Source: an uncultured Lachnospiraceae bacterium (GTDB lineage: Bacteria; Bacillota; Clostridia; Lachnospirales; Lachnospiraceae). Taken from it: DNA of 64,000 nt. Both the position numbers and the translations under genes were made by a program. Location of the stretch: assembly GCA_947626415.1 (NCBI GenBank), contig CANQSA010000002.1, positions 124,001 to 188,000 of the forward strand, written 5' to 3'. Positions 14,349-38,778 of this stretch are shown here, one piece after another. The notes below the pieces were generated by a model. It searched no databases. It was given only the letters and a program-made list of their open reading frames with translations, and was not told where the DNA came from. Each line of letters starts with the position of its first letter. Positions within the stretch are counted from its first letter, which is position 1.

Positions 14349-15083
14349 TTAATAATCCAGATCCAGGATCGGCGCAGCCAGGTAGATCCTGGTCTGATCA
14401 TTCTGCTCGTCGTAGGTGATCGCGATATTGAGATTTACGGTCTCACCGCCCACGGTAACGCTGTCTTCCATTTGATCCGTATAGCCGTATACCGTATACA
14501 GACCACCGTCCCTGCCATCGATCACCAGCCTGCTTCCCGTATCCTCCAATAATTGTTCCACGATCGCCTCTTTCTGAGCGTCGCTGCACTTTCCGTCGAT
14601 CAGTCCCATGATATTAACCGTTACCTGGGGGTCTTCCACAAACCGGCTGGCCGCTTTTTTGATCTGCTGTCTGTAATATAACGCACTTTCCGCAGAATCT
14701 TTCAGCGCCAGATTCACATAAAAATAATGAGCCGGAGACTCTTCTTCCACAGTAAGAAGTTTGATCGCCGCAGAATATTGATCCGTTTGTTTTGCCAGCA
14801 CCCGTACCGTCCCGTTTTCATTTTCTTCCTCATACAAGGTGTACCGGTCATGCAGTCCCATGTCATCGGCAAGCTGCACCAGTATTTCCTCTTTTTGTCT
14901 TAAAGTCAGATCTCCTTTTCCGTAATAGGCCATGCATTCCACTGTAGAAACCGTTTCTTTACAGGCCAGACTCGCAAACGCGCTTACCACCCGATTTTCC
15001 GCTTCTCTCTGAAACGGCATAAACAAAACCACGCCGACGATCAGAGCCAGGCAGCCTGCCCCGTAATAAATCCATTGACGCAT
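14349..15083 (-). CDS. YwmB-like (DUF1779/TATA-box-binding-like) extracytoplasmic protein
   Basis: 244 residues with an N-terminal membrane helix or signal (WIYYGAGCLALIVGVVLFMP). Two features recall YwmB of Bacillus: the segment YYGKGDLTLRQKEEILVQLA followed by a strand with VRVLAKQTDQYSAAIKLLTV, and a second half of the same alpha/beta type (KCSDAQKEAIVEQLL, RLVIDGRDGGLYTVYGYTD). In Bacillus the gene sits beside murAA and spoIID; here those neighbours are absent, and the function is unknown, with a cell-envelope or sporulation role inferred only by family. AGGAG lies about 10 nt before the ATG. It follows the dCMP deaminase gene by 73 bp, on the same strand. Confidence 0.65.
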   Translation of the reverse strand: MRQWIYYGAGCLALIVGVVLFMPFQREAENRVVSAFASLACKETVSTVECMAYYGKGDLTLRQKEEILVQLADDMGLHDRYTLYEEENENGTVRVLAKQTDQYSAAIKLLTVEEESPAHYFYVNLALKDSAESALYYRQQIKKAASRFVEDPQVTVNIMGLIDGKCSDAQKEAIVEQLLEDTGSRLVIDGRDGGLYTVYGYTDQMEDSVTVGGETVNLNIAITYDEQNDQTRIYLAAPILDLDY

Positions 15084-33411: not shown

Positions 33412-36400
33412 TTACTTAATCGTATAATTAGTTTGTGCATTAACTTCTGTAAATCTGCCATTACCATCATTTGGTCCTACATATCCTGAAAAAGAAATCT
33501 GTTTATTTGCCAGAGTATTTACATTATAGCCAGCTACTGACAAATCAACTACATTCAATAAAATACACCCTGTATCTGTATCGGCATCATTATTAAATGT
33601 TCCAAAATCCATATAGCCACGAACTACACTGCTATCATCGATTAATTGCTTAATTTCTGCAGCTCCGGGTTCAACACTATCCCAAAGAATTCCATTTGCA
33701 TAAACTACTTTATCAGCAGAACTGTACCACGCATGGCTTCCAACACTATATTTCTTTCCATCAATATGCAGGTAAATCTGTGAATTCATACCGTTCCACC
33801 ATGCATATGCTGTTCCGCCGACAGTACTTCCATCTGAATGAAGTTTGTCCGTCTTAATAATGGACATCACATACATCTTCGTACCGTCTACTTTATAATA
33901 TGCGGAAGAATAAGTATTAGCTGCTGTCTTGATCTGCGTATAGTTTGTATTGGCAGACATCGCCAATTCATAATCTACAGTTTTTTCTGCATAGGTCTTT
34001 GTTCCGTCTGTCAAAGCAACTGTATAGGAACCTTCTACATCATGCCAGCCTTCCATTGCTTTCATAGACAACACGGCCTCTACAGTATCACCTTTATAGG
34101 ACACACTCTTGACTGTAGCCAAGTTCTTTGTGATTCCGGTTGCGGCCTTTGTTCCATTCACAGTTACATAATACTTAGAAGAGTCAATACTCTGATTTCC
34201 CTTAAATGTAACGGTCACCTCACTGGCAGTATCCGGATATGCTTTTCCGCTTACTGTTGCTGTCGCCTTAAATGGAGAATTTAGCGAATAAGTAGCTGTC
34301 CCATCCACTTCTACAAATCTGCCATTACCATCATTCGGTCCTACATATCCTGAAAAAGAAATCTGTTTATTTGCCAGAGTATTTACATTATAGCCAGCTA
34401 CTGACAAATCAACTACATTCAATAAAATACACCCTGTATCTGTATCGGCATCATTATTAAATGTTCCAAAATCCATATAGCCACGAACTACACTGCTATC
34501 ATCGATTAATTGCTTAATTTCTGCAGCTCCGGGTTCAACACTATCCCAAAGAATTCCATTTGCATAAACTACTTTATCAGCAGAACTGTACCACGCATGG
34601 CTTCCAACACTATATTTCTTTCCATCAATATGCAGGTAAATCTGTGAATTCATACCGTTCCACCATGCATATGCTGTTCCGCCGACAGTACTTCCATCTG
34701 AATGAAGTTTGTCCGTCTTAATAATGGACATCACATACATCTTCGTACCGTCTACTTTATAATATGCGGAAGAATAAGTATTAGCTGCTGTCTTGATCTG
34801 CGTATAGTTTGTATTGGCAGACATCGCCAATTCATAATCTACAGTTTTTTCTGCATAGGTCTTTGTTCCGTCTGTCAAAGCAACTGTATAGGAACCTTCT
34901 ACATCATGCCAGCCTTCCATTGCTTTCATAGACAACACGGCCTCTACAGTATCACCTTTATAGGACACACTCTTGACTGTAGCCAAGTTCTTTGTGATTC
35001 CGGTTGCGGCCTTTGTTCCATTCACAGTTACATAATACTTAGAAGAGTCAATACTCTGATTTCCCTTAAATGTAACGGTCACCTCACTGGCAGTATCCGG
35101 ATATGCTTTTCCGCTTACTGTTGCTGTTGCCGTTAAGTCAGTTCCCGGTTCCGGCGTTACCGAAGATCCATTATTCTTCACGGTTACATTATCTACTGCT
35201 GTAACAGAATTGTAACGTCCACCTCTTACATAGAGACCGGTAACATCATTGCTTTCGCCATTTACTGTAACAGTGCCAGTATAAAGAGTAGTATCACCAT
35301 TTGTAATCTTCACTGTAACCTTACCGGTCGTCTTATCAACAGTTGCGCTGATATGAACCCAGGTATCCTTCGGAATTACAACAGTATCATTTGTACCAAC
35401 AATACTCCATGTTGTACTCTTTTCCGAAGACAGTTTCAAAATATATCCAGACTCAATACCGTTATTGGCATTTCTCTTACCCTCATTATCTGCCATATAT
35501 GTACTATTACCGGCAGTTATTGCAAATTCTGTTGTCTGATTATTACCAGCTGTTAATTTTACATCGGTTTCTACAGTATAAGAATCGCCCAAGTTTAAAC
35601 CTGAAAATGTCGTATACGCAGCTCTGGAATTTTGTGTAGTATCGAGAGCAAACTCAACATAATTTGCATGTTCGTCCCCATCATTTTCAAATTTCAGGTA
35701 GCCCTGTGCATTCGGTGAAGTCCATCCGGTATCCGACAGATTGTTATAGTCTTCATAATACTCATAGCCTGAAGCATCTGCCTTCTCAACTGCTTCTACC
35801 CACAGTTCCACGTCACTAATCTTTCCGTTGAAAGGTGTATCCCAATCGAATGCGCCCTTACCGAAATTCAATTCGTCTGCAGTGTTATTCAGGAATCTCA
35901 AAACCTCTGCAAACGGATCCTGCTCAGACTTTCCGCCCGGAACTTTACCTGCGATATCATCCTGATCGTAGGCAAGTTTACCGTCAACATACACTTCAAA
36001 GCCTTTCGGTAAGATCTTAATCTCGACAGCAGTTTCCTCTGTCCCCAGGAAATCCGTTCCCGCTTTCCAGTTATTTTTATCAGAATTATCAACATTGGCG
36101 TCAAAGAAGTTGCCGGTATTATATCCCAGGTAAGAGCCGCCGGTAAACCATAAACCGTTATTGGCTCCCTTTTCATTAAATCTGAAGATATTGCTTAAGA
36201 AATCCAATGCCGTTCCGGTACGCTGTGCCTTAAATTTGATCGACACGCCGTTGTAGATTGCCAATCCGGCAGTTACATTTCGGTTATATGGATTCCGATA
36301 TGTATAAGTATTCGGCGTTCTTTCCTCACAGGTAATCTTCGCAGTTACCCCAAGCGTATACGCTTTTCCTGCATAGGTAATATCTTTGGAACCGGAAGCA

Positions 36401-38778
36401 GTAACAACCGTCTCCTCTACATCCACATAGGACAGATCCTGCGGATCATTGGTAAAGAAGTCCGCAACTTTATACATGCCGTCATGTTCTGCAAATACCT
36501 TAACCGTATAAGAAACCTTTGTCGTTGCCTCACCGTAGGTGATCGTTGCCGTCAAAGTAACTTCTGTATCCTCAGCCGGTGTTGTAACCTTACCTTCTGC
36601 AGTCAGAACAGCCGGATTGGAGGATTCCCATTGAATGGTGGTTCCGTAAGCACCGGAAGTCGGCAATGTAAAGCTGCTGACCGCACCCATCGGAACTTCC
36701 AGTTTCTCACATGTTGCCTCAACTCTGTCTTCATCTGCAAAATCGTAACGATATCCCCATACACTGACTTCATCGCTGCCTAAAACAGTAAATACAGTCG
36801 CGGTTTCATCGGTTCCTTCTTTCTTCTGCTCTAAGAACACGCCCTTATAAGTCGTATTGCCTAACTTCAAGGTTACATAAGGAGAACCGTCGGACAACTG
36901 CTTCCAGGTACCGGTTCTGGCTCCGGTAACAGTTCCGTCCGCGGCAAATGTCAGTTCCACGCCTTCTACACATTCCACATTCGCAAAATCCGTTCCGGTC
37001 TGGAATAACGTCTCATATACGCCGGCAATCTGCGCTGTTGTGATTTTCTCCGGCAATGACTCGCCGGTATATTCAAACGGCGCTGCAACCAGCCATCCGT
37101 CCTCATTCAGGAATAACTGATGTACTCTTACCTGATGCCATTCTGTCCCGTTATTAAACCTGGTATGATATACCACATAGGCTTTGCCGTCACTATCTAC
37201 AAATGCGGAGTTATGACCTTCCGCTACATAACCGTAGTCCATGAAGCTCCACTTATAATAGGACATCAGACGGTTTCCGACATGCCCGTTGGTATTGCCG
37301 GCATTACTGGATCCCGGATCTCCGGCTGCCATCGGGTATCTGGCGTCTTCTCCGCTCTCATCCACATAAGGTCCCGTGATCTCTTTGGAACGGAACACTC
37401 TCATATTATATCCGCCATTGGCAGCCAGACCGCCATAGGTAACGAACAGATAATAGTAATCTCCGATATGCTCAATATAAGATGCCTCGCCGCTGCTCTG
37501 ATTACCGCCGGCAATCTTATATCCGGTATACGGATCGGATACGCTTGATTTACTTGCGTATTTGGTATTATAGTCCCGTAATCCGGTCTTGTTATCCAGA
37601 CGGATCAGACCAATACCGCCGGACCAGGATCCATAGCTCATCCACAGGTTCCCGTCTTCATCATAAGTAACACAGGGATCGATCGCGTGCGGCTCAATAG
37701 TCGGATTACCTTTTCTGACCGCATTAGTATAACGGCTGTTCACGGTTGTCTCTCCGGTTACCTTGGTATAATCAAAGGTCGGACCGAATCCCATAGACAT
37801 ACCGGACTGAATAACCGGTCCTACATAAGTCCAGTTTCCATCCAGATGATCCGCAGTCAGCAGGCAGATCGTCGAATTCCACTTTGGACCATTGATACTC
37901 ATATACATGCACCATTTGCCCATTGCTTCGTTGTAGATAACATCCGGCGCCCACATATTTCCGTCTACATCATAACTGCTGTCCGCTTTACGCGCCCATG
38001 CTGCTTCAGCCGCAAATAAAGTTCTGAAATTCGTATTAATATTATTGGTAAAGGTCGTCCAGTTCTTTAAATCGGTAGACTTCGCCCATGCCAGATGAGA
38101 ACCGAATACATAATAAGTATCGCCTTCTTTTACAATACTGGGATCATGTACGCTGACTCTGCCGCGTTCCTGAATCGGTGACGCCGCGTAAGTCTCAGAC
38201 GGAGAAACAATCCCCACCATACTCAGTACCATAGCCGCTGTCAGCAAAGCAGACAGGCTCTTGCGAAGCCATTTCTTCTTATAACCGACAACAACCAGTG
38301 TACCTGCTGCCGCAAAGACTGCTATCCAGATCAGCATCGTAGGCGCGTCACTTGTCTGTGCCGGATTTCCCGTTCCATCGCTGTCTCCCGGCTTTACCAC
38401 AGGATCATTTCCATCACCCGGCTTATTATCATCCGGATTCTCCGGCTGTGAAAGCTGCTCCAGATTGGTAAAAATCACGTTTGCTCCTGCCTCCAGACCG
38501 TTTAAAACCGTCGGCAGTTTGTCATACCCCGGAATCTTATCTTTCAGTTCCTCCGGTATATCATAAGTCAACTCCACTTTTGTAACTGCTGCATTGGACT
38601 GACTATCTATCCCGATCTGCAGTCCAATCTCATCCCCATCTGCATATGTATCCTTATTCGTATCCACTGAAACCGTGAAATCCGATTCCGATACTTCTGC
38701 AAATGCCGTCATTGCTCCGGTTAATGCAAAGAGTAATGACAGGAAAAGCGTAAAGATTCTTTTTACACTTTTTTGCAT
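33412..38778 (-). CDS. Secreted multidomain GH43 arabinanase-like protein with internal sorting and signal segments
   Basis: 1788 residues; probably degrades arabinan or a related plant polysaccharide. Order: signal peptide (1-27, TAFA cut); small domain (28-110); Pro/Gly/Asp linker; NPAQTSDAPTM plus hydrophobic helix and GYKKK (138-169), which looks like a C-terminal sortase signal; LRKSLSALLTAAMVLSMVGI...TYA (171-198), a second signal peptide; GH43 five-blade propeller (~205-520) with VSVHDPSIV, HAIDPCVTYDEDG, SSGEASYIEHIG as the Asp/Asp/Glu sites and AEGHNSAFVD; a C-terminal beta domain as in Abn2-type endo-arabinanases; a bacterial Ig-like domain (~705-770); two LamG-like lectin domains (~785-1190); then two 288-residue repeats (1213-1500, 1501-1788) nearly identical to each other. 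No anchor at the end. Good promoter and AGGAGG site. Confidence 0.85.
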   Translation of the reverse strand: MQKSVKRIFTLFLSLLFALTGAMTAFAEVSESDFTVSVDTNKDTYADGDEIGLQIGIDSQSNAAVTKVELTYDIPEELKDKIPGYDKLPTVLNGLEAGANVIFTNLEQLSQPENPDDNKPGDGNDPVVKPGDSDGTGNPAQTSDAPTMLIWIAVFAAAGTLVVVGYKKKWLRKSLSALLTAAMVLSMVGIVSPSETYAASPIQERGRVSVHDPSIVKEGDTYYVFGSHLAWAKSTDLKNWTTFTNNINTNFRTLFAAEAAWARKADSSYDVDGNMWAPDVIYNEAMGKWCMYMSINGPKWNSTICLLTADHLDGNWTYVGPVIQSGMSMGFGPTFDYTKVTGETTVNSRYTNAVRKGNPTIEPHAIDPCVTYDEDGNLWMSYGSWSGGIGLIRLDNKTGLRDYNTKYASKSSVSDPYTGYKIAGGNQSSGEASYIEHIGDYYYLFVTYGGLAANGGYNMRVFRSKEITGPYVDESGEDARYPMAAGDPGSSNAGNTNGHVGNRLMSYYKWSFMDYGYVAEGHNSAFVDSDGKAYVVYHTRFNNGTEWHQVRVHQLFLNEDGWLVAAPFEYTGESLPEKITTAQIAGVYETLFQTGTDFANVECVEGVELTFAADGTVTGARTGTWKQLSDGSPYVTLKLGNTTYKGVFLEQKKEGTDETATVFTVLGSDEVSVWGYRYDFADEDRVEATCEKLEVPMGAVSSFTLPTSGAYGTTIQWESSNPAVLTAEGKVTTPAEDTEVTLTATITYGEATTKVSYTVKVFAEHDGMYKVADFFTNDPQDLSYVDVEETVVTASGSKDITYAGKAYTLGVTAKITCEERTPNTYTYRNPYNRNVTAGLAIYNGVSIKFKAQRTGTALDFLSNIFRFNEKGANNGLWFTGGSYLGYNTGNFFDANVDNSDKNNWKAGTDFLGTEETAVEIKILPKGFEVYVDGKLAYDQDDIAGKVPGGKSEQDPFAEVLRFLNNTADELNFGKGAFDWDTPFNGKISDVELWVEAVEKADASGYEYYEDYNNLSDTGWTSPNAQGYLKFENDGDEHANYVEFALDTTQNSRAAYTTFSGLNLGDSYTVETDVKLTAGNNQTTEFAITAGNSTYMADNEGKRNANNGIESGYILKLSSEKSTTWSIVGTNDTVVIPKDTWVHISATVDKTTGKVTVKITNGDTTLYTGTVTVNGESNDVTGLYVRGGRYNSVTAVDNVTVKNNGSSVTPEPGTDLTATATVSGKAYPDTASEVTVTFKGNQSIDSSKYYVTVNGTKAATGITKNLATVKSVSYKGDTVEAVLSMKAMEGWHDVEGSYTVALTDGTKTYAEKTVDYELAMSANTNYTQIKTAANTYSSAYYKVDGTKMYVMSIIKTDKLHSDGSTVGGTAYAWWNGMNSQIYLHIDGKKYSVGSHAWYSSADKVVYANGILWDSVEPGAAEIKQLIDDSSVVRGYMDFGTFNNDADTDTGCILLNVVDLSVAGYNVNTLANKQISFSGYVGPNDGNGRFVEVDGTATYSLNSPFKATATVSGKAYPDTASEVTVTFKGNQSIDSSKYYVTVNGTKAATGITKNLATVKSVSYKGDTVEAVLSMKAMEGWHDVEGSYTVALTDGTKTYAEKTVDYELAMSANTNYTQIKTAANTYSSAYYKVDGTKMYVMSIIKTDKLHSDGSTVGGTAYAWWNGMNSQIYLHIDGKKYSVGSHAWYSSADKVVYANGILWDSVEPGAAEIKQLIDDSSVVRGYMDFGTFNNDADTDTGCILLNVVDLSVAGYNVNTLANKQISFSGYVGPNDGNGRFTEVNAQTNYTIK
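33473..34263 (-). repeat. Tandem repeat copy 2 (C-terminal) in the arabinanase gene
   Basis: Second copy of an 864-bp in-frame direct repeat. Aligned against copy 1 (offset 864) I see no difference from 33473 to 34263; the first mismatches are T/C at 33472/34336 and C/T at 34264/35128. Both strands translate identically over the part I compared closely. Confidence 0.9.
34337..35127 (-). repeat. Tandem repeat copy 1 in the arabinanase gene
   Basis: First copy of the 864-bp repeat. Each unit encodes a beta-rich half (SGKAYPDTASEVTVTFKGN) and a second half with WWNGMNSQIYLHIDG and GSHAWYSSAD, possibly a carbohydrate-binding module; I do not recognise the family. Confidence 0.9.

Follow-up and report, generated by a model that had tools for sequence, protein, structure and literature searches.

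The window, that is, the whole stretch of DNA that was analysed (64,000 nucleotides), carries on its minus strand a single long reading frame, P0001, in which a small Ig-like part with its own export signal precedes a GH43 enzyme part with another. The frame begins at an ATG, which is the sole well-supported start and has a strong GGAGG upstream. An independent translation start at the second signal peptide was considered and rejected, as only poor in-frame candidates were found there and none of them had a good ribosome site. The features of the locus are as follows.

33412..38778, minus strand: whole reading frame of P0001, 1788 amino acids, putative Ig-like receptor followed by the GH43 enzyme; open throughout, with ortholog L009/L222 and paralog L005
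38786..38790, minus strand: GGAGG ribosome-binding site of the start, read from the sequence
38698..38778, minus strand: signal peptide 1, residues 1-27, AFA/EV, read from the sequence and conserved in alignments A1-A4
38461..38694, minus strand: incomplete Ig-like domain of NEW3 type, predicted strands A-E, residues 29-106 (AlphaFold strands at 26-104; dN/dS 0.08)
38368..38460, minus strand: disordered linker, residues 107-137 (pLDDT <50; dN/dS 0.34)
38347..38367, minus strand: degenerate sorting-like motif NPAQTSD, residues 138-144, read from the sequence
38281..38337, minus strand: predicted stop-transfer membrane segment 1, residues 148-166 (hydropathy; position conserved in 45 proteins)
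38260..38280, minus strand: short positive loop KKKWLRK, predicted to be cytoplasmic, residues 167-173 (the first six members aligned all have KKK)
38185..38259, minus strand: signal peptide 2, internal, residues 174-198, predicted to be cut by signal peptidase I at TYA/AS (site in 45/45 module proteins)
37081..38163, minus strand: GH43 catalytic domain, endo-arabinanase type, residues 206-566 (Pfam PF04616)
36754..37080, minus strand: GH43_C lipocalin-like domain, residues 567-675 (PF16369, E 1e-20)
36490..36681, minus strand: aBig_2 domain, residues 700-763 (PF20578, E 3.6e-18)
36319..36429, minus strand: candidate docking beta-hairpin, residues 784-820, strands 789-802 and 805-818 (held-out HMM; pLDDT 82-88; gap in L129)
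33415..35130, minus strand: near-perfect C-terminal duplication of a unit of about 288 residues, residues 1217-1504 and 1505-1788 (self-comparison)

Both profile and structural comparisons identified the enzyme part as GH43: Pfam matched PF04616 with E 7.7e-28, and VIA-align superimposed the domain on 4kca with Z 43.9 and rmsd 2.3 over 465 aligned residues. The score against the NCBIfam AbnB equivalog NF053746 was 310.7 bits, under the cut-off of 750. Between aBig_2 and the duplicated units lies a region that, in our own reading, is concanavalin-like; Pfam gave no match for it. The duplicated units, which form the C-terminal third of the protein and are likely to be substrate-binding, are identical in 275 of 284 amino acids and 836 of 852 nucleotides, every amino acid difference lying among the final 12 of the first 284 residues. 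Since the sister-species ortholog has a different end, the duplication is either recent or an effect of assembly.

The first-pass annotation had described a normal signal peptide at residue 1, a sorting-signal layout at residues 138-169 and a complete second signal peptide ending in TYA before the GH43 domain. Both signal peptides were borne out. The internal one has the n/h/c layout of a type I signal peptide, with a positive n-region (KKKWLRK), the core SLSALLTAAMVLSMVGIV and the end SETYA/AS, cleavage being predicted between A198 of T196-Y197-A198 and A199. The sorting signal stood only in part. Residues 138-148 read NPAQTSDAPTM, and the hydrophobic residues 148-166 are followed by KKKWLRK, as in a genuine sorting signal, but the motif itself (PAQTS) is degenerate, with the proline missing and S in place of G, and does not fit xPxTG. 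C-terminal sorting signals encoded elsewhere in the same genome read VPTTGD, LPITGG, SPETGD, IPTTGA and MPSTGG, and ten sortase genes were found there as PF04203 matches over cut-off. A pentapeptide-like motif, a hydrophobic segment and positive residues are thus common to P0001 and the LPXTG-type cell-wall sorting signal (Gram_pos_anchor), whereas in P0001 the element is internal, with a signal peptide, an enzyme and in all about 1615 residues beyond it, and its motif is degenerate.

The N-terminal arrangement, hereafter the module, was identified in 45 proteins, many of them only 20-25% identical to P0001 over this region. An [AVSTIL]-x-A site with a typical +1 residue follows the second hydrophobic core in 45/45, where shuffling of the 22 residues beyond the core, within which the site was sought, gave an expectation of 32.5/45. 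A sorting-like motif precedes the first hydrophobic segment in about 17 of the 45; good examples (NPKTG, NPKTGS, NPKTGD, IPNTGD, PPKTGD and TPKTGD) occur mainly in proteins with cargo other than GH43. GH43 members have mostly lost the motif and have a poly-V helix as their first segment. The ubiquity of the cleavage site, the patchy occurrence of the motif and the ten sortases together suggest that a signal peptidase I cut would be general and sortase transfer optional. The small wall-anchored protein proposed in the first-pass annotation is therefore a weak case for P0001 itself, given its degenerate motif, and plausible only for those members that keep xPxTG.

The module is not peculiar to this locus. 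An ortholog in another species of the same genus (L009/L222) retains the whole of it at 90% identity, and the genome of P0001 also encodes a diverged paralog (L005) whose parts stand in identical order. Comparison of P0001 with the ortholog gave a dN/dS of 0.13 for the module against 0.19 for GH43. By part, the values were 0.08 for the Ig-like domain, 0.06 for residues 138-166 and 0.17 for the second signal peptide, the linker at residues 107-137 being the least constrained stretch inside the module; the short docking hairpin itself gave 0.53 over 33 codons. Judged from these ratios, the module is at least as constrained as the enzyme and under purifying selection. A profile search found 29 full-length modules in 25 of 397 Lachnospiraceae genomes, and a class-wide sample added three further Clostridia families to make four in total, these figures being a function of the profile and of the genomes sampled. 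In a phylum-wide sample of 398 genomes, searched at E 1e-10, the only module found was that of the window's own genome, with none outside the class Clostridia. The layout was seen in more than 20 genera and with differing cargo, including GH43, GH16 with CBM4_9, Listeria-Bacteroides (InlB-type) repeat proteins, carboxypeptidase-regulatory/PEGA proteins and others without a name.

Several members of the family deserve separate mention. A frame of 1246 amino acids (L216, G770:C27) carries two complete modules in series, each with an Ig-like part, NPKTGS, a membrane segment, a signal peptide and a hairpin, from which three non-covalently chained pieces could arise; its contig is just 4.4 kb long and the genome has tandem paralogs elsewhere, so that an assembly chimera is possible. 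In another Clostridia family, L217 (G459:C55) comprises three tandem module genes; the cargo, about 430 residues long, is glycosidase-like and looks like a TIM barrel. A module gene with Listeria-Bacteroides-repeat cargo is broken by a frame change in its PEETTT repeat linker in L220 (G014:C47) and L221 (G237:C57); the change is identical in the two genomes, which are assigned to different genera, and phase variation or recent transfer is possible. The resulting 183-amino-acid frames were considered as examples of a separately encoded half and rejected, since each is really the module gene with the frame break in its linker repeat. No homologues with the two halves as separate genes were found as the normal state.

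A complete Ig domain of NEW3 type needs two further strands beyond strand E. In the AlphaFold model of P0001 strands are found at residues 26-104 and no more occur until the membrane segment; in that of L088, strands A-E lie at 36-116, ahead of the membrane segment. On the cargo side, L088 has a hairpin at residues 187-217 (pLDDT about 92) directly past signal peptide 2, where a hairpin motif of about 30 residues is present in most members with cargo other than GH43. The P0001 hairpin, too, is modelled with confidence (pLDDT 82-88), between flanks that both have pLDDT <50. The Ig domain therefore appears in these models to be split, with its last two strands placed on the cargo side as a hairpin of about 30 residues, and residues 784-820 of P0001 are presumed to be the missing strands F-G. 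Both strand count and AlphaFold confidence fit a donor-strand Ig fold, while the profile comparison spans strands A-C only. Against NEW3 (PF10633, cut-off 24.4 bits), L005 scored 28.9 and L052 29.3; P0001 was not listed and the others were below the cut-off or absent. Comparison with profiles of complete NEW3 domains aligned the first 45 columns alone, corresponding to strands A-C, and hhalign and PDB profile searches likewise reached only strands A-C, where the remote similarities were to arrestin, dextranase and NEW3-like tandem domains. Fold searches were dominated by GH43 matches and so barely probed the Ig-like part, and a search of the viral library for the fold returned nothing useful.

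An HMM of the hairpin was built from 17 rows, nearly all from cargo other than GH43 (L156 being the single GH43 row) and without P0001. It matched P0001 at residues 794-813 with 13.2 bits, the best place in 1590 residues; 0 of 300 shuffles did so, and the maximum among 46 GH43 proteins lacking NEW3 was 5.3 bits. Paralog L005 and L050 were also found, again with 0/300 shuffles each. The HMM missed L069 and L072 and was weak on L087 and L059, all four of which have an insertion whose motif was first picked by eye (alignment A4) and tested afterwards. Six GH43 members without a hairpin after signal peptide 2 have one insertion each, of 30-55 residues, in three different loops: L005, L072 and L087 in one propeller loop, L059 in another, and L050 and L069 in GH43_C. 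The hairpin of P0001 itself lies after aBig. In the same alignment these six GH43/GH43_C insertions are missing from 17/17 enzymes without NEW3 and from 16/16 of RPYV type, and P0001 784-818 coincides exactly with a gap in L129. The relocated hairpin thus co-occurs with the module. Such a wandering position would fit a docking tag better than a folding remnant, and it would make most sense for the cargo to carry the missing strands if they tie two pieces together.

Co-variation of the two elements was also examined. The nearest relatives of the P0001 Ig-like part and of its hairpin both come from L049, a protein with other cargo. Ig-like and hairpin similarities were correlated overall (r 0.56) and between proteins with different cargo (r 0.21, p 18/2000), the latter not significantly once the RPYV group was removed. 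In seven genomes, 8/8 hairpin matches below 1e-4 lay in module-bearing frames, several of these being in the profile. Further matches at E <0.01 in the seven genomes, which might have indicated use of the hairpin as a tag in trans, were treated as chance and set aside; they comprise a YwmB/DUF1779-like protein, its same-genus counterpart and one frame of 104 amino acids in G078. The YwmB/DUF1779-like protein is encoded in the window at 14349-15083 (minus strand), and its stretch DSVTVGGETVNLNIAITYDE, which is kept in the sister species, resembles the docking hairpin with E 5.6e-4, probably by chance.

Anchors are exchanged on GH43 enzymes. A large subfamily whose cargo starts with the hairpin 'TVTLRPYVxVxYAGQEV' exists in two anchor forms. 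The membrane-hairpin form has a signal peptide, the Ig-like domain, a membrane segment, KKK and signal peptide 2, and the lipoprotein form has the same Ig-like domain fused directly to the same cargo start without membrane segments. The lipoprotein forms are uncut and their hairpin adjoins the Ig-like domain, as expected for one continuous domain. Lipobox anchors and the membrane hairpin thus alternate inside one subfamily, and well-supported branches of the GH43 tree require the hairpin label to change six times or more. The enzyme nearest to P0001, L129 from an uncultured Roseburia, shares 69% identity with it in GH43, stays collinear with it in the domains that follow, and has a dockerin-like repeat at its N-terminus in place of the module (Dockerin_1, 18.8 bits, under the cut-off of 22.9); P0001 gave no dockerin match at E up to 1. 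The lipobox, the dockerin-like repeat and the module appear to fill one functional slot, the surface retention of the enzyme. The N-terminal dockerin-like repeat of the Roseburia arabinanase (L129:312-620) suggests an uncharacterised cohesin partner.

Drawing on sequence and on AlphaFold confidence, we consider it probable that the receptor stays anchored when signal peptidase splits off the enzyme, and that the hairpin re-docks the latter non-covalently. The gene would thereby give an anchor-plus-enzyme pair from one precursor. Signal peptide 1 would export the incomplete Ig-like domain with strands A-E, the next hydrophobic segment (residues 148-166) would halt transfer, and after a short cytoplasmic KKK loop signal peptide 2 would restart export of the enzyme part. 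Signal peptidase I would then cut after TYA198 to leave a small membrane-held receptor and a free arabinanase; in xPxTG members, sortase may transfer the receptor to the wall. The enzyme's beta-hairpin (about 784-820), as the two missing strands of the receptor, would re-dock by strand complementation, a contact that strand counts and model confidence suggest. The device would resemble a cohesin-dockerin pair encoded in cis, at a 1:1 ratio. The two exported products envisaged in the first-pass annotation are in keeping with this, as the conserved internal signal peptide is best read in that way, but the halves are probably not independent, because the hairpin would complement the Ig-like domain.

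Three other explanations were weighed against cleavage and re-docking. The precursor may stay uncut as a membrane hairpin, with both domains outside and covalently tied by two membrane segments, the second 'signal peptide' being an anchor helix. The replacement of the lipobox by the module in one GH43 subfamily, which points to surface retention as the shared function, and the long poly-V helices that form some first segments would agree with this. An AxA site with a typical +1 residue in 45/45 members and a second segment that is short and signal-peptide-like speak against it, and an anchor would need no cargo-side placement of the missing Ig strands. We regard an uncut hairpin as unlikely; many homologues with a stable anchor and no processing, which would have told against two products, are not what the sequences indicate, as the AxA site is present in all members. 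If the signal peptidase cut instead sets the enzyme free and leaves a small Ig-like protein in its anchor, the two never re-associating, this accounts for the conservation of the internal signal peptide and for the lack of a C-terminal anchor in the cargo parts listed. Such a plain polyprotein leaves unexplained why the Ig-like halves lack strands F-G and why the cargo has a matching hairpin at varied sites that is missing from relatives without the Ig-like part, and we consider it quite improbable.

The first-pass annotation had also raised the fusion of two genes by deletion of an intergenic region. The junction does resemble a C-terminal sorting signal that runs directly into a signal peptide, as would be expected if the gene for a small wall protein had been joined to an enzyme gene by accident or by misassembly. 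The same layout is found in the ortholog, in the paralog and in more than 20 genera of several families with unrelated cargo, under purifying selection and with no frame break in P0001. A local accident or assembly error is hardly credible and stands refuted; the module may owe its origin to an ancient fusion.

The component principles are known singly, namely internal signal-peptidase cleavage, a polyprotein with an internal signal, donor-strand complementation and cohesin-dockerin docking. FbcH, the cytochrome b/c1 polyprotein of Bradyrhizobium, is encoded by one gene with an internal signal peptide, and a leader-peptidase cut gives two partners of one complex; unlike P0001, it belongs to a respiratory membrane complex, with no surface receptor, split domain or modular cargo. 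To our knowledge, very few bacterial polyproteins are processed by signal peptidase. The likeness to cohesin-dockerin systems lies in a small module on a secreted enzyme that docks to a surface-held domain, and in L129 a dockerin-like repeat replaces the module; those systems rely on calcium-binding helices and encode the cohesin in a separate gene, whereas P0001 has a beta-hairpin and an Ig-like domain in one gene. In LtaS of Staphylococcus aureus, the type I signal peptidase SpsB cuts at A217/S218, past an internal membrane segment, and thereby releases the extracellular enzyme, which according to the authors may remain associated with its membrane part (PMC10865820). LtaS differs in having a polytopic membrane domain and in lacking an exported N-terminal domain, a sorting-like motif and a second complete signal peptide. 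Donor-strand complementation outside a Gram-positive cell is provided by TapA/TasA, in which an incomplete Ig-like fold is completed by a beta-strand of another polypeptide (PMC10151520); there, separately encoded subunits serve filament assembly, with no precursor cut by signal peptidase and no enzyme display.

In the open-access literature searched, we found no description of internal cleavage, polyprotein, strand complementation and docking in combination, no paper on an internal signal peptide in Lachnospiraceae and none on an internal sorting signal with sortase. The chances seem evenly divided as to whether this is a previously undescribed form of surface display in Clostridia, in which a secreted cargo with a hairpin tag is cut from an incomplete Ig-like receptor held by an anchor and the two are reunited non-covalently, in the manner of a natural split-protein tag. 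The tag could then sit almost anywhere in the cargo, and the module would swap with lipobox and dockerin anchors. It would be a new variety of surface anchoring, with an even chance of being a new principle.

These results indicate that an internal signal peptide does not necessarily mark a mis-called start or an assembly error when it turns up in a predicted protein, and that annotation of such genes as simple secreted or membrane enzymes overlooks the anchor. If true, the receptor and hairpin would offer protein engineering a receptor-tag pair that is genetically encoded. The module spans unrelated cargo and its hosts are plant-fibre-degrading gut bacteria; a split Ig-like domain that rejoins the two pieces would, if true, be a new way of displaying enzymes on Gram-positive cells.
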